Both the position numbers and the translations under genes were made by a program. Positions 13,890 through 24,431 of a stretch of DNA of 24,767 bases are shown here, in pieces. The notes below the pieces were generated by a model. The model ran no database searches. It was given only the letters and a program-made list of their open reading frames with translations, and was not told the origin of the DNA. This stretch comes from a virus. The stretch is from positions 1-24,767 of the IMG/VR virus record IMGVR_UViG_3300025141_000708; one strand, written 5' to 3'. Position 1 is the stretch's first letter, and the number at the start of each line of letters is the position of its first letter.

Positions 13890-14396
13890 ATGCCTTTTAC
13901 CCCTGCTTATGGGACAATGAAGAGAACTCCTAAGAGATCCGAGCATTATGTTAATAATAAAGAGTTCTTGGCTGCCCTAGAGAATTATTTTGCTGAGGTG
14001 GAAAGGGCTGCATTGAATGATAAACCTAAACCTCAAATACCTAGGTATATTGGTGAATGTTTTTTAAAGATTGCTAACCATCTATCATATAAGCCAAACT
14101 TTGTGAATTATATGTTTAAGGATGATATGATATGTGATGGTATTGAAAATTGTGTGAGATATATTGCTAATTTTAATCCAGAGAAATCTAAAAACCCCTT
14201 TGCTTATTTTACTCAAATAATTTATTATGCTTTCCTTAGAAGGATTTCGCAAGAGAAAAAGCAATTAGAAATTAAGAATAAGATTTTAGAAAAGACTAAT
14301 TTTGATGAAGTCTTTGATGCTAATGATATGGATAGTGCTAATTATTCAGAGTATAACTCTATCAAAGATAGCGTGCATTCTAAATTGAGAAATTAA
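13890..14396 (+). CDS. 55: Late-transcription sigma factor gp55
   Basis: gp55 is the small sigma factor that redirects host RNA polymerase to late promoters. Its 168 residues compare with 185 in T4. The match covers HYVNNKEFLAALENYF (19-34; T4 YNYVNNKELLQAIIDW), MICDGIENCVRYIANFNPEKSKNPFAYFTQIIYYAFLRRISQEKKQ (T4 [46 protein letters not shown]). In T4 the extreme C-terminus carries the clamp-binding peptide SLDFLYE; here the protein ends in SIKDSVHSKLRN with no such motif. The start at 13890 follows AAGGA; a second ATG lies at codon 10. The stop overlaps the gp47 start (TAATG). The identification is strong. Confidence 0.92.
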   Translation: MPFTPAYGTMKRTPKRSEHYVNNKEFLAALENYFAEVERAALNDKPKPQIPRYIGECFLKIANHLSYKPNFVNYMFKDDMICDGIENCVRYIANFNPEKSKNPFAYFTQIIYYAFLRRISQEKKQLEIKNKILEKTNFDEVFDANDMDSANYSEYNSIKDSVHSKLRN

Positions 14397-15436
14397 TGCG
14401 TGTAGCTATTATTACGGATACTCATTTCGGAGCAAGAAAGGGTTCACAACTCTTTCATGATTATTTTGAGAACTTTTATCAGGACGTCTTTTTTCCGGTA
14501 TTGATTGGAGAGGAGATTGATACTGTAATTCATATGGGGGATGCTTTTGATAGTAGACGTGGGGTTGAATTTAAGTCTTTAGATTGGGCAAAGAGAGTAG
14601 TATTTAATCCTCTCAAAGAACAAGGGATTACTATGCATTTAATGGTTGGAAACCATGATGCTTATTATAAAAATACTAATGAAATAAATTCTGTTGATTT
14701 ATTATTAAGAGAATATGATAATATTATTCCATATTCTGTTTCTACAGAAGTTAAGATTGGTGGTTTAGATATTCTTTTTGTTCCGTGGATAACAGAAGAA
14801 AATAAGAAATATACTTTTGAGTGTTTGAAGAAGACTAATTGTGAAGTAGTGATGGGTCATCTTGAGTTAAATGGGTTTAAAGCAACTCAAGGACATATGA
14901 TGGAAGATGGCACATCTGTGTCTGAGTTTGAAAGGTTTAAAAGAGTTTACTCCGGACATTTTCATTGTAGATCAAATAGGAATGGGATATATTATTTGGG
15001 GAATCCTTATGAAATGTTTTGGAATGATGCTGCAGATACAAGAGGATTTCATATTTTTGATACTGAGACATTAGAGCATACTCCAGTTAATAATCCTTAT
15101 AGGATGTTTTATAAAATTTATTATGATGATACTCCTCATCAAACCTTTGATACTAGACAATATGAGAATAAAATTGTTAAAGTAATTGTGCGTCAGAAGA
15201 CAAGTCCTATTAAGTTTGAGAAGTTTATTGATAAATTATTATCTTCTGGTGTTGCTGATTTAAAAATTGTTGAAAATTTTCAACTCATAGAATCGGGAGA
15301 TTTTGAAATAGAAGAATCAGAAAATACACTTTCTATTCTTGATAGATATATTGAAGAATCTGAAACAGAATTAGATAAGTCAACTATACAAAGTTTGATA
15401 AGAAAAATTTATCAAGAATCTTGTGAGATTGTGTAA
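14396..15436 (+). CDS. 47: Recombination endonuclease subunit gp47 (Mre11-like)
   Basis: gp47 is the nuclease subunit of the gp46/gp47 complex, which resects DNA ends for recombination-dependent replication. Its 346 residues compare with 339 in T4. The metallophosphoesterase motifs of Mre11 are present in order: DTHFG (8-12), GDAFDSR (48-54), GNHD (about 85-88), the GH of VMGHLE (about 159-160) and the GHFH motif (about 188-191). The C-terminal 100 residues form the usual capping/binding domain and end acidic. The start overlaps the gp55 stop, and the stop overlaps the next start (both TAATG), indicating a coupled operon. The identification is secure. Confidence 0.96.
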   Translation: MRVAIITDTHFGARKGSQLFHDYFENFYQDVFFPVLIGEEIDTVIHMGDAFDSRRGVEFKSLDWAKRVVFNPLKEQGITMHLMVGNHDAYYKNTNEINSVDLLLREYDNIIPYSVSTEVKIGGLDILFVPWITEENKKYTFECLKKTNCEVVMGHLELNGFKATQGHMMEDGTSVSEFERFKRVYSGHFHCRSNRNGIYYLGNPYEMFWNDAADTRGFHIFDTETLEHTPVNNPYRMFYKIYYDDTPHQTFDTRQYENKIVKVIVRQKTSPIKFEKFIDKLLSSGVADLKIVENFQLIESGDFEIEESENTLSILDRYIEESETELDKSTIQSLIRKIYQESCEIV

Positions 15437-15708
15437 TGCATATTATTACAGTTAATGGCAAAGAAAAGGATGGTGCTTACTCTGTTAGAGATGATGATGG
15501 GGACCAGGTTCTTTATATTTTTCAACAAGAAGATGATGCCATTAGATATGCTATGCAACTTGAGGATAGGGGATATCCTGAGATGCATGTCATTGAAGTA
15601 GAAGATGATGTAATGATTAAAACATGCGAAATACACGACCATAGATATGCTATTATCTCGCCCCATGATATTGTGATACCTCCTGACAGCCAAAATGATT
15701 ATATTTGA
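15436..15708 (+). CDS. DUF3110-like small protein between gp47 and gp46
   Basis: This 90-residue acidic protein is inserted between the two subunits of the Mre11/Rad50-type complex. Residues 22-85 match the pattern I know for DUF3110, a small family of cyanobacteria and plants: a strand VLYIF, then QEDDAIRYAMQLEDRGYPEMHVIEVEDDV, a Cys in KTCEIHDHRYAII, and PHDIVIPP. Its molecular function is unknown. The start overlaps the gp47 stop by TAATG, and its last 14 bases overlap gp46, so all three are likely translated as a unit. This might modulate gp46/47 or be a host-derived regulator; both are guesses. Family assignment is from memory of the motif, moderately sure. Confidence 0.8.
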   Translation: MHIITVNGKEKDGAYSVRDDDGDQVLYIFQQEDDAIRYAMQLEDRGYPEMHVIEVEDDVMIKTCEIHDHRYAIISPHDIVIPPDSQNDYI

Positions 15709-17404
15709 AAAGATTTCGTGGCGCAACTTTTTAAGCACTGGCAATCATTCTACAGAAGTTATACTTAATCAAAATCCTACTACTTTAGTTGTAGGTCAAA
15801 ATGGAGCAGGAAAGTCTACTATTCTGGATGCATTGACTTTTGTTTTATATGGAAAGTCTTTTAGGAAAATTAATAAATCACAACTAGTTAATAGTTCTAA
15901 TGAAAAAGATTGTTTCGTAAATATTGAATTTTCTATTACTGGAACTAATTGGAAGATTGAAAGAGGAATAAAACCTAATATCTTTAAGATCTTTAGGAAT
16001 GGGGAAGAGATGGATCAATCACATTCTGCGTTGAATCAGCAGAAGTGGTTAGAACAGTCTGTTCTAAAGATGAATTATAAATCTTTTACACAGATTGTTA
16101 TTTTAGGTAGCAGCACTTTTGTGCCATTTATGCAACTGCTTCCTGGAAGTAGGAGGGAAGTTGTAGAAGATTTATTGGATATTAAAATCTTTTCTTCGAT
16201 GAATGTTCTTATTAAAGAGAAAATAAGAGGAGTAAAGGATGAAATTAAAACTTTAGATTTAAAGAAAGAATCTTTAAAGGATAAAGTAGAGATGCAAAAG
16301 AAATTTATTGAAGAGGTAGAGTCTAGAGGAAAAGAAACTATAGAAGAAAAGAATAAGAAGATTGATGAACTAGATCTATCTGTAGCAAAGTTAATAAAGG
16401 ATAATGAATTCTATGAAGATGAAGTAGTAGGATATACAAAGATGAGAGAGAAGAGTGTGGGTGCTACAGAAAAACTTCTTAAGTTAGCTGGATTAAGAGG
16501 TAAGATCTCTAACAAAGTATCAACTATTACCAAAGAACATAAGTTTTTCACAGATAATACTGTTTGTCCTACTTGTACTCAACCAATTGAGGAGGGATTC
16601 AGAATAAATAGGATTGAAGATGCTCAAACTAAAGCAAAAGAGTTGCAATCTGGTTTTAAAGAACTAGAGGAGGCAATTAAAACAGAAGAAGAAAGAGAGC
16701 GTCACTTTACTACTGTATCTAAGGAGATTATTCAACTCACGCATGGCATTTCTAAAAACAATACTCAGATCGCTGGCTGCCAACGACAAATCAGGGATCT
16801 TGAATCGGAAATTCAAAGAGTTACCGAGCAACTTGCAAACAGAAATACTGAGCATGAGAAGTTAGAATCTTTTAGAAATAGTCTTCAAGACACCTACCAA
16901 CATTTGGCTGAGAAGAAAGAGACTATTTCTTACTATGATTTTGCTTATGGACTCCTGAAAGATGGTGGAGTTAAAGCAAGCATAGTTAAAAAATATTTGC
17001 CTTTGATAAATCAGCAAGTTAATAAGTACTTGCAGATTATGGATTTTTATATTAATTTTAAATTGGATGAGGAATTTAATGAGACTGTGGAGTCTCCCAT
17101 CCATGAAGATTTTTCTTACTCTTCTTTCAGTGAGGGAGAGAAATCTAGAATAGATTTAGCTCTTATTTTTGCCTGGAGAGAAGTTGCCAGGTATAAGAAT
17201 TCTGTTAATACAAATCTAATGTTATTTGACGAAGTATTTGATTCGTCTTTAGATGGGTATGGTACCGATGAATTCATGAAGATTATTAGGTTTATTGTAA
17301 AAGACGCTAATATCTTTGTTATTTCTCATAAAGATTCATTACACGATAAGTTTGCAAGTTTAATAAAATTCGAAAAAGTAAAAGGATTTAGTAGGATAGC
17401 GTAA
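15695..17404 (+). CDS. 46: Recombination endonuclease subunit gp46 (Rad50-like ATPase)
   Basis: gp46 is the SMC/Rad50-type ATPase partner of gp47. Its 569 residues compare with 560 in T4. Walker A GQNGAGKST lies at 34-42; two coiled-coil arms (about 175-285 and 305-400) flank a zinc hook CPTC at C291-C294; the ABC signature SFSEGEKSR is near 476-484; Walker B LMLFDE ends at D512/E513; and the H-loop VISHKD is near 543-548. Everything expected of an active enzyme is present. It overlaps the DUF3110-like gene by 14 bases, and its stop overlaps the first sulfotransferase start (TAATG). The identification is secure. Confidence 0.97.
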   Translation: MIIFEKISWRNFLSTGNHSTEVILNQNPTTLVVGQNGAGKSTILDALTFVLYGKSFRKINKSQLVNSSNEKDCFVNIEFSITGTNWKIERGIKPNIFKIFRNGEEMDQSHSALNQQKWLEQSVLKMNYKSFTQIVILGSSTFVPFMQLLPGSRREVVEDLLDIKIFSSMNVLIKEKIRGVKDEIKTLDLKKESLKDKVEMQKKFIEEVESRGKETIEEKNKKIDELDLSVAKLIKDNEFYEDEVVGYTKMREKSVGATEKLLKLAGLRGKISNKVSTITKEHKFFTDNTVCPTCTQPIEEGFRINRIEDAQTKAKELQSGFKELEEAIKTEEERERHFTTVSKEIIQLTHGISKNNTQIAGCQRQIRDLESEIQRVTEQLANRNTEHEKLESFRNSLQDTYQHLAEKKETISYYDFAYGLLKDGGVKASIVKKYLPLINQQVNKYLQIMDFYINFKLDEEFNETVESPIHEDFSYSSFSEGEKSRIDLALIFAWREVARYKNSVNTNLMLFDEVFDSSLDGYGTDEFMKIIRFIVKDANIFVISHKDSLHDKFASLIKFEKVKGFSRIA

Positions 17405-18033
17405 TGTCCATTTATAAACATCCCGAGGGGAAAAGGTTTTTATTCATTCATATTCCCAGAACTGGAGGAAGATTTATTGAGTCAAATTTAGAATCTAACG
17501 AATGGAGGTGTGAACCCATAGATTATTATGGAGTGCCTCATTATAATCATTCATTTATAGATGATTGTGAAATAACTCATTTTCATAGACAATTGTATGA
17601 AAAGTATTTTAATGCAAAAGATATTCCTCATATTTCCATCATTAGGAATCCCATTGATAAATTCTTTTCGGCATCCATTTATTTGACTCAAGCCTATGGA
17701 CCTAATATTCAGGAGGCTGCTGAAGACGAATCTCAATTTAATGACATGTTGAAGGATTTTCCTAAACCAGAGAATCTTAATTGGTGGAGATCACAGGTGG
17801 ATTTTCTTTCAGATAAAACTCATATTTGGAGATATGAGGATGGATTGGGACCTAAGTTTGCTCAGTGGATAAGTAAAATGGTTGGAATGGATATTAAGAT
17901 AGATGCATATGCCAAATATCCTATGAATCATCATGAAAGAACTGGTCAACTACTAAGGACTCCTAAACTTATAGAAAATATCAAAAAACTTTGTAGACGA
18001 GATATAGAACAACTTTATCCTGAATTGATGTAA
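17404..18033 (+). CDS. Sulfotransferase-like protein, copy 1
   Basis: This 209-residue protein looks like a PAPS-dependent sulfotransferase of the Sulfotransfer_2 type. The 5'-phosphosulfate loop is HIPRTGG at 16-22, with Arg where Lys is usual. The 3'-phosphate site is RNPIDKFFSAS (81-91), where R81 and S89 have the canonical eight-residue spacing. DFLSDKTHIWRYED (about 138-151) and the C-terminal CRRDIEQLYPEL also fit such enzymes. No signal peptide or membrane segment is seen, so it would act in the host cytoplasm; the acceptor is unknown. It is a clear paralogue of the next gene and is coupled to gp46 by TAATG. The Arg for Lys change leaves activity open. Confidence 0.75.
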   Translation: MSIYKHPEGKRFLFIHIPRTGGRFIESNLESNEWRCEPIDYYGVPHYNHSFIDDCEITHFHRQLYEKYFNAKDIPHISIIRNPIDKFFSASIYLTQAYGPNIQEAAEDESQFNDMLKDFPKPENLNWWRSQVDFLSDKTHIWRYEDGLGPKFAQWISKMVGMDIKIDAYAKYPMNHHERTGQLLRTPKLIENIKKLCRRDIEQLYPELM

Positions 18034-18674
18034 TGGCAACCTTTAAGCATGTAGAAAGTGGAAAGAGATTTCTTTTTGTTCATATACCCAGAACTGCTGG
18101 TAGATTTGTAGAATGGAATTTAGAAGCTCAAGGGTGGGTGTGGGATGATAAGAATGTTATTGATAAGATGTATAAGAGTGTGGAGGGAATAGAACTTGCA
18201 CATTTTCACAGAGAGTTTTATGAAAAGTATTTGGATGTAAAGGATATTCCCCATATTTCCATTGTGAGAAATCCTATTGATAGATTTATTTCTGCATCTA
18301 TTTGGTTGACCAGATTATATGGAGACGACATTCAAGAATCTATGGAAGATCCTATGATGTTTTCTTCTATGATTTATAATTTCCCTGCATCAGAATCTCT
18401 TAATTGGTACAGACCTCAAGTGGATTTTATTTCGGATAAAACTCATGTATGGAAATTTGAGGATGGTATTGGGGATGAGTTTTCCAGATGGATAAGTGGC
18501 ATAGTGGGGGTAGACATTAAGATGGATAAGGACTTAAAGTACTTGAAGCATCCTAGGATGCGGGAAGATAGTGTGGAGAGTCGACTGAAGAAAACAGATG
18601 CTCTTATACATAATCTTAGTATTTTTTATAGGAAGGATTTCTTTAAATTCTATCAAGACAATGAAAGTCCCTAA
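18033..18674 (+). CDS. Sulfotransferase-like protein, copy 2 (tandem paralogue)
   Basis: This 213-residue protein is related along its whole length to the preceding gene, from GKRFLFVHIPRTAGRFVEWNLE (10-31) through AHFHREFYEKY, KDIPHISIVRNPIDRFISASIWLT (70-93), LNWYRPQVDFISDKTHVWKFEDG to the C-terminal FYRKDFFKFY. The PAPS-binding loop is HIPRTAG at 17-23, and the 3'-phosphate pair is R79 and S87. By eye about half of the aligned residues are identical, so the duplication is old, and the central loop (residues 35-55) and C-terminal quarter differ most, as expected if acceptor choice has changed. The start overlaps the previous stop (TAATG). Its last 14 bases overlap a short basic reading frame. 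Confidence 0.75.
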   Translation: MATFKHVESGKRFLFVHIPRTAGRFVEWNLEAQGWVWDDKNVIDKMYKSVEGIELAHFHREFYEKYLDVKDIPHISIVRNPIDRFISASIWLTRLYGDDIQESMEDPMMFSSMIYNFPASESLNWYRPQVDFISDKTHVWKFEDGIGDEFSRWISGIVGVDIKMDKDLKYLKHPRMREDSVESRLKKTDALIHNLSIFYRKDFFKFYQDNESP

Positions 18675-19152: not shown

Positions 19153-19707
19153 ATGAAGAGTTTTTTACAATTTAATGAAGATGCTGAATCAGCACATAGA
19201 TCTATGACTTCGGGATTAGGACAATCTCGTTCTGGTACTATAGGTGGTAGTTATAATAAACCATCTGTAAGACCTAAGACTGGTATAGGTGGATTCCTCA
19301 AAGATAAGATAAATCAAATGAGGAAACCTGAGTTGCGATCCCAGCAAAAAAAGGCTTCATCTTTAACTAAGAAGCCAGATACGTCAGTTCAAAAAGTAAA
19401 CGTTAGTGTTCAGGATAGGGGGAAAGAACGTCCGGCATATAGACCAAGACTTACTCCTGCAGAGAAACAGAAAGTATCTGCTGCTAAACAGAAAAGACTT
19501 TCTTCAAGCGCCAAAAGGAAAGCACTTGTCCCTATTCCCCAACAAAAAGCTCTTCCCCCTAGTCCCCAACAAAAAGAACTTCCTCCTAGTTCTAAACAAA
19601 AAGAACTTCCTCCTAGTTCTAAACAAAAAGAACTTCCTCCTAGTCCCCAACAAAAAGCACTTCCTCCTAGTTCTAAACAAAAAGCACTTCCTCCTGCCAG
19701 ATCATAA
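19153..19707 (+). CDS. Basic repeat protein with a capsid-targeting-like N-terminus; candidate internal head protein
   Basis: This 184-residue protein is strongly basic and low in complexity. Its N-terminus MKSFLQFNEDA resembles the capsid-targeting peptide of T4 internal proteins (MKTYQEFIAE), which directs them into the prohead and is then removed by gp21 after a (L/I)xE-like site; here the matching cut would follow FNE (E9). Residues 30-125 are rich in Lys, Arg, Gln, Ser and Pro. Residues 129-182 are six nine-residue repeats of the form (P/S)(Q/K)QK(A/E)LPPS. A late-like octamer lies at 19124 and a strong terminator follows, so it is a single-gene unit. The real gene call is good; packaging and injection with DNA is inference from the N-terminal motif and charge. 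Otherwise it may be a structural linker protein. Confidence 0.75.
   Translation: MKSFLQFNEDAESAHRSMTSGLGQSRSGTIGGSYNKPSVRPKTGIGGFLKDKINQMRKPELRSQQKKASSLTKKPDTSVQKVNVSVQDRGKERPAYRPRLTPAEKQKVSAAKQKRLSSSAKRKALVPIPQQKALPPSPQQKELPPSSKQKELPPSSKQKELPPSPQQKALPPSSKQKALPPARS
19537..19698 (+). repeat. Six tandem 27-bp coding repeats
   Basis: Six consecutive 27-base units are built on cc..AACAAAAAG.(A/C).CTTCCTCCTAGT. Two kinds of unit start alternate: CCCCAA in units 1, 2 and 5, and TCTAAA in units 3, 4 and 6. Units 3 and 4 are identical. The repeat is in frame and encodes nine-residue units in the gene at 19153. Copy number probably changes by slippage or recombination. Confidence 0.95.
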
Positions 19708-19770: not shown

Positions 19771-21837
19771 ATGATCAATTACGAAATCAAGTCCCATCTT
19801 GCTAAGCTTCTTGCTACTGAGGATTTGGTGGTAGAACATCAGCATGTAGATACTGCTCAATTTAATGTAGAAACTAGGGTGTTGACTTTGCCTTTGTGGA
19901 AAAAGGCATCTAGTGTAGTTTATGATATGTTGGTTGGTCATGAGGTAGGACATGCGCTTTTTACTCCCAATAGATGGGATTTTAAAATTCCTAAACAGTT
20001 TGTAAATGTATGTGAGGATGTACGTATTGAGAAATTGATGAAGCGTAAATATCCTGGTATTGCTAAAACATTATATGTTGGATATAATGCATTACATGAT
20101 GAAGATTTTTTTGATATAGATGGTGAAGATCTTACTACTTTTAATCTTGCTGATAGGATTAATCTATACTATAAGGTGGGTTCGTTCGTTGATTTGGATT
20201 TTGACCCTATTGAAAAGGAGATTGTCGATTTAGTTGGTGCTGCTGAAAGTTTTGATGATGTTTTGTATGCTGCTCAAGCTTTGTATGATTACTGTAAACA
20301 GCAGATAGAAGAACCCAAGGTTCCCTCTATAGAAAATAAGGATATTCCTCCTCCGGAGGAGCAAGGTGAAGAAACTTTTGAGGAGCAATTTTTTGATGAT
20401 GGAGTTGAAGAAGAGGAAGAATTAGATTCTACAGATAATAGTTCTAGTGGTGATCTGGAAGTTATTACTGATACTGCTTTTGAGGAGGGGTCTCAGCAAT
20501 TAAATGATCTCACAAATAATTTAGAGAGTGTATATGTTGAGATTCCTAAGGTAAATATCAATGCTATAATTGAATCTAATTTAGAAATTCATTCTACCTT
20601 AGAAGAAAGTTGGAAAGATCAACTTTTTCCTTATACTGATTCTTCAATAGCAGATTTTAGTTTCTGTGATTCTCATTATGAGCAATTTAAAAGTTCTGCT
20701 CAAAAAGAAGTTAATTATTTGGTAAAGGAATTTGAATGTAAGAAAGCATCTGACAGTTATGCTCGTGCTACTACAGACCGTACTGGGGTTCTCGATACAA
20801 CGAATCTTCAAACATATAGATTTAATGAAGACCTTTTTAAGAGAGTTACTGTCCTTCCGGATGGTAAGAGTCATGGACTTATTTTCATTTTAGATTGGTC
20901 TGGATCTATGGGAACTGTTTTAGAAGATACTGTGAAGCAATTATATAATCTTGTTTGGTTCTGTAGTAAGGTTCAAATTCCTTTTGATGTTTATGCATTC
21001 ACTGATGGTTATGGTCAATGGAAACATAAGGATGAATTGCCTCTTCCTAGGATGAAAAAGGAAGAAGGTAAATTGTATGTTAATGATCAATTCTCATTGA
21101 TGAATATTTTTACTAGTAAAGTAAGTAGAAATATATTAGAAAAGCAAATGAAATCTTTTTGGAGGGTGACTTTTTATTTGAGTCATATGAGGATGATGCC
21201 TAAGTATGATATTCCTCTTCAGTATAGATTATCTGGAACACCTTTAAATGAATCTTTGATCGCTTTGCATCAAATTATCCCTCAATTTAAAAAAGAAAAT
21301 AGGGTGCAGAAAGTTCAATGCGTTATTTTAACTGATGGAGAATCAAATGCACTGCCTTACCATAAGATAGTACAACGTTATTGGGAGGATGAACCTTATA
21401 TGGGATGTAGGAATATTAGTCCTCATCATACCTACCTTCGTAATCGTAAAACTGGACATACTTATCAATTTGGATATAAGTATTGGGAGTTTAGTGAGGT
21501 TCTTTTGGAGGATTTAAAGGAAACTTTTTCTGATACTAATTTTATTGGTATTAGATTACTTTCTAGTGGAGATTTTGGAAAATTTGTGAGGAGATATAAT
21601 CCTTTTATTAGTGATAATAAAATGAGACAAGCGAGAAAGAATAAGTCTTATATTATTAATAATAGTGGATATCATTCTTATTTTGGTATTCTATCTTCTT
21701 CTCTTTTTAATGATGAATCATTTGAAGTGGAAGAAGATGCACCTAAAGCAAAGATTAAGAGTGCATTCATCAAATCTTTGAAGAATAAGCAACTAAATAA
21801 AAAGATATTAGGAGAATTTATAGAGCTGGTAACCTAA
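19771..21837 (+). CDS. CobT-like protein: HExxH metallopeptidase-like region plus VWA domain
   Basis: This 688-residue protein pairs with the AAA+ ATPase downstream. Near the N-terminus it has HEVGH (57-61) followed by VCEDVRIEKLMKRKYPGIAKTL (80-101), a zinc-peptidase-like arrangement; the segment around E82-K91 also recalls CobT of aerobic cobaltochelatase. An acidic low-complexity linker covers about 206-262. The C-terminal half is a VWA domain with MIDAS residues D375, S377 and S379 in LDWSGSMG and T521/D522 in LTDGES. Such VWA proteins work with MoxR/CobS-type ATPases to remodel or metallate a target. GGAGGG at 19751 is 14 bases before the ATG. Architecture is clear; the substrate is unknown, and real B12 synthesis is unlikely to be the direct role since no CobN is present. 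Confidence 0.85.
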   Translation: MINYEIKSHLAKLLATEDLVVEHQHVDTAQFNVETRVLTLPLWKKASSVVYDMLVGHEVGHALFTPNRWDFKIPKQFVNVCEDVRIEKLMKRKYPGIAKTLYVGYNALHDEDFFDIDGEDLTTFNLADRINLYYKVGSFVDLDFDPIEKEIVDLVGAAESFDDVLYAAQALYDYCKQQIEEPKVPSIENKDIPPPEEQGEETFEEQFFDDGVEEEEELDSTDNSSSGDLEVITDTAFEEGSQQLNDLTNNLESVYVEIPKVNINAIIESNLEIHSTLEESWKDQLFPYTDSSIADFSFCDSHYEQFKSSAQKEVNYLVKEFECKKASDSYARATTDRTGVLDTTNLQTYRFNEDLFKRVTVLPDGKSHGLIFILDWSGSMGTVLEDTVKQLYNLVWFCSKVQIPFDVYAFTDGYGQWKHKDELPLPRMKKEEGKLYVNDQFSLMNIFTSKVSRNILEKQMKSFWRVTFYLSHMRMMPKYDIPLQYRLSGTPLNESLIALHQIIPQFKKENRVQKVQCVILTDGESNALPYHKIVQRYWEDEPYMGCRNISPHHTYLRNRKTGHTYQFGYKYWEFSEVLLEDLKETFSDTNFIGIRLLSSGDFGKFVRRYNPFISDNKMRQARKNKSYIINNSGYHSYFGILSSSLFNDESFEVEEDAPKAKIKSAFIKSLKNKQLNKKILGEFIELVT

Positions 21838-21838
21838 A

Positions 21839-22006
21839 ATGGAAGATTGGACAGTTTGTCCTTATTGTGAAAGGTCGGATAGATTATGCTCCGAGATACT
21901 CAGTATAGAATCTGCTTATGCTCGAGATGATTGTAGAAAAAGACATCGTGCACAGACACCTGACAAAGTGTCCTATTATGGTGTTTATTATAATGATATA
22001 GATTAG
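21839..22006 (+). CDS. Small Cys-rich protein, 55 residues, possible zinc-binding
   Basis: A short reading frame begins one base after the stop of the cobT-like gene and encodes MEDWTVCPYCERSDRLC and onward, ending YYNDID. Cysteines lie at 7 and 10 (CPYC), 17 and 32, with His at 36, so a small zinc site using C7, C10, C17 and C32 is possible. The C-terminus is Tyr-rich. Its place between the VWA gene and its ATPase partner suggests it is co-translated and could be an adaptor or regulator, but that is a guess. I recognise no family. The tight junction and absence of a better frame in this gap support it. Confidence 0.65.
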   Translation: MEDWTVCPYCERSDRLCSEILSIESAYARDDCRKRHRAQTPDKVSYYGVYYNDID

Positions 22007-22030
22007 AATATTTTTAATTGAAAAGCACAC

Positions 22031-23101
22031 ATGGTAATGAGTATTGATAATATAGTTTCTTCCCTTGCAGATCTTTATGGTACTGAAGTAGTGGCTGCTG
22101 ATATCCGTGCTTGGTGTTCTATGAATAGTGGTAATTATCAAACAGTGACTAAGAAAATAGAACAGTATAAAGTTGGACGTGGTAAGTGGAATCTAACTTA
22201 TACAGAGAAACTTGAAAAAACTTATAATGCTCCTGCTGTTGTTCCTAATATAGAGCAAAATCTTATTCCTCAAAAAGATGATACCTTCATCAACTTTGGT
22301 CCTTTTAATGATATTAAGACCATTATCCAAACCAATTTGTTCTATCCTACATTCATTACTGGCCTTTCGGGCAATGGTAAAACGTTTGGTGTTGAACAAG
22401 CCTGTGCGCAACTTAGAAGGGAACTGATTCGTGTCAACATCACAATCGAAACCGACGAAGACGACCTTGTTGGTGGGTTTCGCCTTATTGATGGTAACAC
22501 TGTATGGCATAATGGACCAGTTATCGAAGCACTGGAAAGGGGAGCTATCCTCCTTTTAGATGAGATTGATTTAGCATCCAATAAAATTCTTTGCTTGCAA
22601 CCTATTCTTGAGGGTAAAGGTATTTTCCTCAAGAAGATAGGTAGGTTTGTTCATCCTGTTCCTGGATTTAATGTTATTGCTACTGCCAATACAAAAGGAA
22701 AAGGTTCAGAAGATGGTAGATTCATTGGTACTAACATACTTAATGAGGCATTCCTGGAGAGATTTCCTGTAACTTTTGAGCAGAATTATCCATCACCTTC
22801 CGTGGAGACTAAGATTTTAGGAAAAGTCGCTTCTTCTTTAAAGATAGATGATAAAGATTTTTGCAAGCGTTTGGTAGATTGGGGTGACATTATTCGTAAA
22901 ACATTCTATGATGGAGGTATTGATGAGATTATTAGCACTAGGCGTCTTGTTCATATTCTATGTGCTTATTCCATTTTTGGCGATAAGATGAAAGCAATTC
23001 AAGTTTGTGTAAATCGATTTGATGATGAGACTAAACAAGCATTCCTTGAACTTTATGACAAGGTAGATGCAACAGTTCAACTTCCGGTTGACCAAGAATA
23101 G
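22031..23101 (+). CDS. cobS: CobS-like MoxR-family AAA+ ATPase
   Basis: This 356-residue AAA+ ATPase is of the type annotated as cobS in T4-like cyanophages. Walker A GLSGNGKT lies at 111-118, Walker B ILLLDEID has D177/E178, sensor 1 is in ATANT (about 217-221), and the arginine-finger region is LNEAFLERFP (about 237-246). The ETDEDDLVGGFR segment (138-149) and QPILEGKGIF also match CobS. A helical N-terminal 90 residues replaces the usual CobS N-terminus. In aerobic B12 synthesis CobS and CobT drive cobalt insertion by CobN; here the partner is the gene at 19771. The start could also be the ATG at 22037. Identity as a CobS-type ATPase is sure; the biological target is not. Confidence 0.88.
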   Translation: MVMSIDNIVSSLADLYGTEVVAADIRAWCSMNSGNYQTVTKKIEQYKVGRGKWNLTYTEKLEKTYNAPAVVPNIEQNLIPQKDDTFINFGPFNDIKTIIQTNLFYPTFITGLSGNGKTFGVEQACAQLRRELIRVNITIETDEDDLVGGFRLIDGNTVWHNGPVIEALERGAILLLDEIDLASNKILCLQPILEGKGIFLKKIGRFVHPVPGFNVIATANTKGKGSEDGRFIGTNILNEAFLERFPVTFEQNYPSPSVETKILGKVASSLKIDDKDFCKRLVDWGDIIRKTFYDGGIDEIISTRRLVHILCAYSIFGDKMKAIQVCVNRFDDETKQAFLELYDKVDATVQLPVDQE

Positions 23102-23116: not shown

Positions 23117-23779
23117 ATGGCATGGTGGTTAACTTATGAGGAACTTTATGGAAACATGGACAAGGAGTATCCAATTATGAATAAAAATGATGATGACGTT
23201 GTAATTTTAGGTGGAACTGATGAAGGTAATGTTGCTGGAGAAGATAGTATAGATTTCAATCAGGGTTGGTGGGAAGGTGATGGAGTCAGTGTGACTGGAA
23301 ATCCATTTGGAAACCCATTTACTTCTGCAGCTGCAGATACTCTTAACATTACTGGATCTAGAGTTCCTGGAGCAATGGGTGAGGACCATATTAATTTTGA
23401 TATGGGTGCTGCCAATACTGCTTATGATGATGCTAAGTACTATGCTACATACAAACCCCAACCTAACTTTAAGAGATCATCAGCTCAAAAATACAAAGAA
23501 AATGTAGGCATTAAAGATCTTAAAGATTATATCTCTTCTACTTACCAGGGACATTATACAAATGACAGTTCAGACGTACAGACATTGGATCTTATCCAAT
23601 CCGTTGGTGATGCTGAATCTTTTTGTCGTTCTAATGCAATCAAATACTTGAGTCGGTATGATAAGAAGGGACAAGCAAAACGTGATATACTAAAAGCAAT
23701 GCATTATTGTCTATTGCTATATTACTTCAGTGGCAACACAAACGATGAAATTACGACCCGTGGTTATGAAACTTTCTGA
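23117..23779 (+). CDS. DUF3310-domain protein with acidic N-terminal extension
   Basis: This 220-residue protein has a DUF3310-type C-terminal domain, the family that includes T7 gp1.7, a nucleotide kinase. The pattern is GHY (145-147), DLIQSVGDAESFCRSNAIKYLSRYDKKG (158-185), then D190, K193 and a terminal helix; N173, K176, Y177, R180, K183 and K184 are the conserved positions. The first 140 residues are an unrelated acidic, Gly/Asn-rich segment in which GEDSIDFNQG (41-50) is echoed by GEDHINFDMG (88-97). AGGAGGGG before the ATG gives a strong start. It overlaps gp45 by 14 bases. A role in nucleotide supply next to replication genes is plausible, by family analogy only. Confidence 0.8.
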   Translation: MAWWLTYEELYGNMDKEYPIMNKNDDDVVILGGTDEGNVAGEDSIDFNQGWWEGDGVSVTGNPFGNPFTSAAADTLNITGSRVPGAMGEDHINFDMGAANTAYDDAKYYATYKPQPNFKRSSAQKYKENVGIKDLKDYISSTYQGHYTNDSSDVQTLDLIQSVGDAESFCRSNAIKYLSRYDKKGQAKRDILKAMHYCLLLYYFSGNTNDEITTRGYETF

Positions 23780-24431
23780 TAAAACTATTCTCCTCCTCAA
23801 GAACTTCTCTTCTATTAATCAATCTATTCTTTTTAAACAGGGGAATAAATTGCGTTCTATTAGTGTAATGAAGAATATTCTTGCTGAGGCAACAATTGAT
23901 GAAGATCTACCTAAAGATTTTGGTATCTATGATTTGAATCAATTTCTTAATGGTCTTTCATTGCATCAAAGTCCAGAATTGGATTTTACTAATGAACAGT
24001 ATGTGGTGATTAAAGAAGGAAAGATGCGTTCTAAGTACTTCTTTGCAGATTCTTCTGTAATTATATCTCCGCCAGATAAGGAGATTACACTGCCTTCTGA
24101 AGATGTATCTTTTATTCTTGCTAGTCAGCAATTGGAGAAATTGAAGAAAGCAGCATCTATTTATCAACTCTCAGATATCTCTGCTATTGGAGAGAATGGT
24201 GTGGTAAAGTTAGTTGCTAGAGATAAGAAGAATGATACTTCTAATGATTTTTGTATTGTAGTGGGGGAAACAGATAAAAACTTTGTTTTTAACTTTAAGG
24301 AAGAGAATTTGAAGATTATTCCTGGTACATATGATGTAATTGTTTCTTCTAAACTTCTATCTAAATTTACTAGTCAGAATTATGCGTTAACTTATTACAT
24401 TGCATTAGAACCCGACTCTACATTTGAATAA
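23766..24431 (+). CDS. 45: Sliding clamp gp45
   Basis: gp45 is the trimeric clamp that holds the phage polymerase on DNA; in T4 it also activates late transcription. Starting at the ATG at 23766 gives 221 residues (T4 has 228) beginning MKLSDKTILLLKNFSSINQSILFK, which aligns with T4 MKLSKDTTALLKNFATINSGIMLK. The in-frame ATG at 23730 would add 12 residues with no counterpart. Other matches are FGIYDLNQFLNGLSL (T4 VAIYDLNGFLGILSL), FNFKEENLKIIPGTYDVIVSS (T4 FIINMANMKMQPGNYKLLLWA) and the end YIALEPDST (T4 VVALEADST). It overlaps the DUF3310 gene by 14 bases. The identification is secure. Confidence 0.95.
   Translation: MKLSDKTILLLKNFSSINQSILFKQGNKLRSISVMKNILAEATIDEDLPKDFGIYDLNQFLNGLSLHQSPELDFTNEQYVVIKEGKMRSKYFFADSSVIISPPDKEITLPSEDVSFILASQQLEKLKKAASIYQLSDISAIGENGVVKLVARDKKNDTSNDFCIVVGETDKNFVFNFKEENLKIIPGTYDVIVSSKLLSKFTSQNYALTYYIALEPDSTFE

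Follow-up and report, generated by a model that had tools for sequence, protein, structure and literature searches.

A 24.8-kb virus record (IMG/VR IMGVR_UViG_3300025141_000708, 24,767 nt; "the window" below denotes this whole stretch) encodes a 688-residue protein with an HExxH motif and a von Willebrand factor A (VWA) domain and, close by, a 356-residue CobS-like ATPase. The literature labels the cyanophage ATPase gene cobS, treats it as a core metabolic gene, interprets it as a vitamin B12 gene and uses it as an ecological marker of these phages. We conclude that the pair is not a cobaltochelatase. With confidence slightly short of even, we read it as an ATP-driven protein-remodeling and protein-cutting machine that acts on phage replication and recombination proteins.

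A broader version of this reading is more tentative. Cyanophage "cobS" would then be no auxiliary metabolic gene, and the ATPase/VWA pair would be one branch of a widespread mobile-element machine that conjugative plasmids share with T4-like and several other groups of phages. In that machine, a MoxR ring would power a metalloprotease tethered through the VWA domain, and protein complexes on DNA undergoing replication or recombination would be dismantled or cleaved. CobT would be a relative that lost the protease site. The pair is carried by almost all marine T4-like phages. If it is a protease machine of DNA metabolism, the B12 reading would be wrong for one of the commonest marine-virus genes, and a function would be suggested for an apparently unstudied DUF3150 module on resistance plasmids such as IncC.

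The HExxH-VWA protein and its ATPase partner

An initial annotation of the window, made from the letters alone, had described three open reading frames (ORFs) of 688, 55 and 356 residues on the plus strand and, in the longest of them, HEVGH at residues 57-61, an acidic linker and a VWA domain with an intact metal ion-dependent adhesion site (MIDAS). All of these were found as described. The annotation would have abandoned its protease-like reading if most homologues had lost HExxH, but all 82 viral homologues compared (the window protein, S-SCSM1 and proteins of 80 IMG/VR loci; about 50-55% identity) retained the motif. Residues H57, E58, H61, N79, E82, D83, R85 and E87 are invariant in this set, and the addition of proteins from Pelagibacter and Ochrobactrum phages changes this only at E87, where Asp can occur. 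An N-domain alignment of 27 phage and bacterial sequences (3 of them bacterial) has nine invariant residues, seven of which are H57, E58, H61, N79, E82, D83 and R85. E82, which stands invariant beside H57, E58 and H61, is a candidate for the third metal ligand that the annotation had asked about. The MIDAS residues (DxSxS, here DWSGS, with T490 and D522) are conserved or invariant as well. Judged by this conservation, the HExxH and MIDAS features are not chance occurrences. A search of 50,697 phage records gave homologues of the VWA protein in 463, which belong almost entirely to cyanophages, and homologues of the ATPase were found in 509 phage records; most listed VWA-protein homologues of T4-like cyanophages are annotated "peptidase".

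The full-length model of the VWA protein had a mean predicted local distance difference test score (pLDDT) of 76, and the N-domain modeled alone with AlphaFold2 reached 90.2. The low-confidence acidic linker covers roughly residues 182-230 of the full-length model. The N-domain model contains three strands, an active-site helix (residues 48-64) that bears HExxH, and a following helix (75-93) that bears E82 and D83. Its top PDB matches were nearly all zincins, among them ArdC (Z 7.1), ZMPSTE24 (6.8), abylysin (6.4), selecase (6.0), IrrE (5.3) and Wss1 (4.7). Because these Z values are modest, the fold call leans on the motif, the model and the consistent match list together. Taken jointly, they support a predicted zincin metallopeptidase fold for the N-domain, whose HExxH...E site is intact. 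The VWA part matched the MIDAS domains of MDN1/Rea1 with Z 16-17 (best VIA Z 17.4), NorD with Z 14-15.5, and other VWA domains with Z of about 12. A CobT structure was absent from the fold-match lists, which excludes nothing.

The ATPase scored 62.4 bits against Pfam AAA_5 (cut-off 22), with a Walker A motif GLSGNGKT and a Walker B region LLLDEID. The CbbQ_C C-terminal domain reached 20.2 in the window ATPase, against a cut-off of 20.6, and 24.5 in a Pelagibacter phage homologue. The domain and structural matches bear out the classification of the two proteins as a MoxR/VWA-type pair.

Genomic context in phages, bacteria and plasmids

The pair lies between gp46/47 and gp45. Among viral loci with enough flanking sequence, 49 of 53 have gp46 on the 5' side of the VWA gene, and 33 of 35 have both CobS and gp45 on its 3' side. 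The order gp46-pair-gp45 is also present in Pelagibacter phage Mosig and in an Ochrobactrum phage, where the genes are annotated as CobT and a cobalt chelatase subunit. In four genomes, NATAAATA, the core of the T4-like late promoter, was found no more than 80 nt 5' of about one third of structural gene starts and 5' of only one of about 33 replication-region starts; it was not found within 80 nt 5' of the VWA, CobS or mini-gene starts in these genomes, and the comparison is small. The density of TATAAATA in the window does not exceed chance expectation, and only its positions are informative. The S-SCSM1 record, for which virion mass spectrometry was done, marks many virion proteins, and neither the VWA protein nor the ATPase is among them. 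Neither cobS nor the peptidase is mentioned in the main text of the paper on the transcriptome of P-HM2 infection.

A scan of genome collections returned chiefly phage contigs binned into bacterial genomes, along with a few bacterial loci. Many contigs from metagenome-assembled and single-amplified genomes, such as those in Woesearchaeota and Rhodopirellula bins (L087-L103), resemble T4-like phage contigs. Proteins from Pseudovibrio, Lamprocystis and Desulfacinum have an intact HExxH, score above the Pfam cut-off for the CobT N-domain and adjoin a CobS-like ATPase and DUF3150. The Pseudovibrio locus also carries RecT and a YqaJ exonuclease, and its VWA protein aligns with the window protein over residues 27-110 (E 1e-8), with HExxH and ED-RIE in register.

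When the Pseudovibrio protein was used as the query, relatives were found on 1,333 plasmids, mainly conjugative. An IncC plasmid has the order ssb-bet-exo-DUF3150-VWA with an AAA ATPase just upstream. We compared 15 distinct plasmid or element loci, some of them picked solely by DUF3150. HExxH is kept in 14, and the remaining one reads HEAGGH. SSB, RecT/Bet, an exonuclease or a PD-(D/E)XK nuclease is nearby in 12 of these loci, and toprim in the other three. A conserved module SSB-RecT-exonuclease-MoxR-DUF3150-HExxH-VWA-toprim was seen on plasmids and integrative and conjugative elements (ICEs; L104, L109-L115 and L137-L143). The closest relatives of the pair outside phages belong to a module of this kind on conjugative plasmids. 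No paper on DUF3150 was found in the literature collection searched.

Further CobS-CobT pairs were seen in phages nickie, RHph_N1_15, JSF27 and Mae-Yong1326-1, near genes for primase, ligase, DNA polymerase, helicase or RecA-like proteins. Three of the four keep HExxH, and nickie does not. The "CobT" of Pseudomonas phage nickie (L147, 3454-5538) keeps its VWA domain and CobS partner and lies near DNA polymerase III alpha. The pattern of plasmid and phage contexts is a raw tally without a null test, and some of the four phages may share ancestry.

Proposed mechanism and competing explanations

In the proposed machine, the MoxR/CbbQ-type AAA+ ring ATPase of 356 residues would be partnered by the 688-residue VWA protein, which probably docks on the ring through its VWA domain and C-terminal tail, in the manner of NorD on NorQ. 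A flexible acidic linker would join the predicted zincin protease domain to the VWA part. ATP hydrolysis would pull or twist the VWA protein, and a MIDAS-bound substrate would be remodeled and handed to the protease. In NorQD, a finger of the VWA domain sits in the pore of the ring, the C-terminus makes a contact and a linker is twisted (PMC13036017). A similar action is plausible here because the tail at the C-terminus of the phage VWA protein is conserved and a long linker separates its protease and VWA domains. The substrate would most likely be a component of the machinery for phage replication or recombination, or else a protein trapped on DNA; we infer it, like complex formation and proteolysis, and favor it on account of the genomic locations of the pair and its relatives.

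Several observations weigh against such a machine. Gene neighborhood is indirect evidence, and since T4-like gene order is inherited, the 463 records amount to roughly one event. The structural matches of the N-domain are modest (best Z 7.1, range 4.7-7.1). IncHI-type plasmids carry the module without an adjacent RecT or exonuclease gene, and the passages on plasmid Rts1 report bet and exo among the genes needed for conjugation and name no MoxR or VWA gene. The nickie pair lacks HExxH, and therefore proteolysis cannot be essential to every member.

If the pair belonged to cobalamin synthesis, the phage CobS, with the VWA protein as CobT, would insert cobalt by way of host CobN. We regard this as highly improbable, even though it agrees with the standard literature label and CobS is the closest NCBIfam model of the ATPase. 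Some papers call cyanophage cobS "cobalamin synthetase" or the final step of cobalamin synthesis. That final-step enzyme is a different one that bears the same name. The window ATPase scored 74.4 bits against the CobS equivalog TIGR01650, far below its cut-off of 558.55, and the CobT equivalog TIGR01651 had no match in the window at E <= 0.001. None of 26 genuine CobT proteins has HExxH at the matching position, which mostly reads H-D/N-x-x-x-H or similar, while E-x-A-R-x-E is usually retained; the HEPAH that one of them has elsewhere is unrelated. A profile comparison of the phage protein with these 26 was weak (N-domain E 0.0097, in register at NVxEDxRIE), so that kinship with CobT rests on bacterial intermediates. 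Pfam PF06213, the CobT N-domain, is passed by the bacterial relatives L104, L106 and L107 and has no match in the window VWA protein.

The hosts and neighborhoods bear on the same question. The initial annotation had doubted a pure B12 role in part because no CobN is encoded here. This argument is weak, because 24 of 26 Prochlorococcus-group genomes have a CobN/ChlH-family gene (many carry two), which favors the cobalamin explanation. The doubt itself is supported. The pair is present in phages of Pelagibacter, and in their SAR11 hosts the methionine synthases that depend on cobalamin, MetH and MtgBCDE, are missing. In none of the loci inspected was a corrin gene seen near the pair. DNA metabolism fits better than B12 synthesis because of the context of the pair and its relatives and the lack of HExxH in CobT.

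In virion assembly or maturation, the MoxR-VWA pair would be a chaperone for head or tail whose protease domain trims structural proteins. Such a role has been proposed for jumbo phages of group 2.2, whose pair has the same architecture, and tail assembly in an archaeal virus provides a precedent (PMC7824862). Phages do use dedicated prohead proteases. The pair is located in a DNA module, away from structural genes; no late-promoter-like motif precedes it, neither protein is marked as a virion protein in S-SCSM1, and relatives are found on plasmids, which have no virion. We therefore consider an assembly role unlikely. Somewhat less likely still is host takeover, the reading of the initial annotation, in which the machine remodels or cleaves a host protein. 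A conserved protease site with an AAA+ partner would suit such a task, and host-aimed phage zincins have been proposed (PMC7824862). Against this, like pairs occur in phages of Cyanobacteria, SAR11, Ochrobactrum, Pseudomonas, Rhizobium and Vibrio and on plasmids, a spread that favors a conserved substrate, and the pair adjoins replication genes and no known host-takeover genes. It is also improbable, to a slightly greater degree, that the pair is a pure chaperone whose N-domain has no catalytic role and serves only for metal binding or docking. NorD does act through remodeling (PMC13036017), and the VWA domain persists in CobT and the nickie protein although both are without HExxH, but the catalytic Glu and both His are strictly invariant across very divergent phage and plasmid proteins.

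The mini-gene, the window and known systems

The 55-residue frame begins one base past the VWA stop codon, as the initial annotation had noted, and contains four Cys (C7, C10, C17 and C32, in the pattern C-x2-C-x6-C-x14-C-x3-H). Searches of IMG/VR and phage records returned as relatives only the near-identical L123 and L124, L130, L131, and gp057 of S-SCSM1. All of them sit between the VWA and ATPase genes, and they represent three lineages only. The mini-gene is real because distant relatives (38-39% identity) keep the four Cys and H36 in the same slot, and these conserved residues suggest a small zinc-binding protein.

The annotation had offered the small protein as an adaptor of the machine. 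As a conserved adaptor it was rejected on its distribution: the mini-gene is missing from nearly every phage, and in 24 of the 70 loci that carry both genes the slot is too short to hold any gene. The remaining slots hold assorted small genes, including a Rho_N/SAP-like family in 11, whose Pfam match is below the cut-off. Across L001-L080 the slot is highly variable, between 37 bp and about 4 kb long, and its small genes change from locus to locus; a GPxSL family is among them. An adaptor role in the few lineages that have the mini-gene is possible. We read it as an optional accessory of the locus there, and its tie to the ATPase-VWA machine is a guess.

The window has a T4-like gene order: terminase, tail sheath, tail tube, portal, scaffold and major head protein, followed by a UvsW-like helicase, gp55, gp47, gp46, two sulfotransferase-like genes, a repeat protein, the VWA/ATPase pair and, downstream, gp45 (Table 1). 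The sulfotransferase-like genes (phrog_3347) stand in tandem at 17404-18674, with gp46 before and the VWA gene after them. The protein immediately 5' of the VWA gene ends in a run of LPPSxxQK-type repeats (19153-19707). A gene at 23117-23779, with a C-terminal DUF3310 (nucleotide-kinase-associated) domain, overlaps the start of gp45. Anti-phage defense models had no match among the pair and mini-gene of the window.

Table 1. Coordinates of the pair, its motifs and context genes in the window
Feature	Position	Strand	Basis
HExxH-VWA protein, 688 aa	19771..21837	+	ORF; phrog_459 "peptidase", E 4.5e-244
Predicted zincin-like N-terminal domain, residues 1-180	19771..20310	+	AlphaFold2 model mc4a8fa26a085, pLDDT 90.2; metallopeptidase structural matches
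HEVGH, residues 57-61, putative metal-binding/catalytic motif	19939..19953	+	82/82 homologues
E82-D83 of N-V-x-E-D-x-R-I-E, candidate third metal ligand	20014..20019	+	invariant; helix 75-93 in model
Acidic disordered linker, about residues 186-230	20326..20460	+	sequence; pLDDT 31-41
VWA domain and conserved C-terminal tail, about residues 365-688	20863..21834	+	structural matches MDN1, NorD
MIDAS motif DWSGS, residues 375-379	20893..20907	+	conserved in homologues
55-aa Cys-rich mini-gene	21839..22006	+	ORF; relatives S-SCSM1, L130, L131 in same slot
CobS-like MoxR/CbbQ-type AAA+ ATPase, 356 aa	22031..23101, start possibly 22037	+	AAA_5; phrog_249, E 1.1e-133
Walker A GLSGNGKT, ATPase residues 111-118	22361..22384	+	translation
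gp47, SbcD-like recombination nuclease (context)	14396..15436	+	phrog_100, E 1.7e-111
gp46, SbcC-like recombination nuclease (context)	15695..17404	+	phrog_77, E 3.7e-181
gp45 sliding clamp (context)	23730..24431	+	phrog_223, E 6e-84; Pfam gp45-slide_C above cut-off

The architecture of the pair is less novel than the initial annotation implied, since a MoxR and metallopeptidase-VWA pair was described in jumbo phages by Iyer et al. (2021; PMC7824862), who suggested a role in virion assembly. As in their group 2.2, a gene for an N-terminal metallopeptidase-VWA fusion stands beside a MoxR ATPase gene; the difference is that gene context here speaks for a role in DNA replication and recombination. 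What the present analysis adds is a DNA-recombination setting common to the phage and plasmid forms, together with the arguments against a B12 gene.

The module on IncC and other plasmids and ICEs shares with the phage pair the HExxH N-domain with a motif of the N-x-x-E-D-x-R-I-E type, the VWA domain, the CobS-like ATPase and adjoining DNA recombination genes. It differs in having DUF3150, which was not seen in the inspected phage loci, in recombination genes of the RecT/YqaJ type and not gp46/47, and in low overall protein identity. CobS-CobT has the same ATPase family and VWA-partner plan, and the CobT N-domain retains E-x-A-R-x-E, whereas CobT lacks HExxH, the phage proteins fall far under the equivalog cut-offs, and a CobN partner is encoded in none of the inspected loci. 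NorQ-NorD and Midasin/Rea1 offer the structurally closest VWA domains and the mechanism of a ring ATPase with a VWA partner, but NorD and Midasin act by remodeling and have no protease domain of this kind. ArdC, Wss1/SPRTN and IrrE, finally, are zincins that act in DNA settings and share the predicted fold of the N-domain, although the similarity is modest (Z 4.7-7.1) and they have no VWA or AAA+ partner fused or adjacent.

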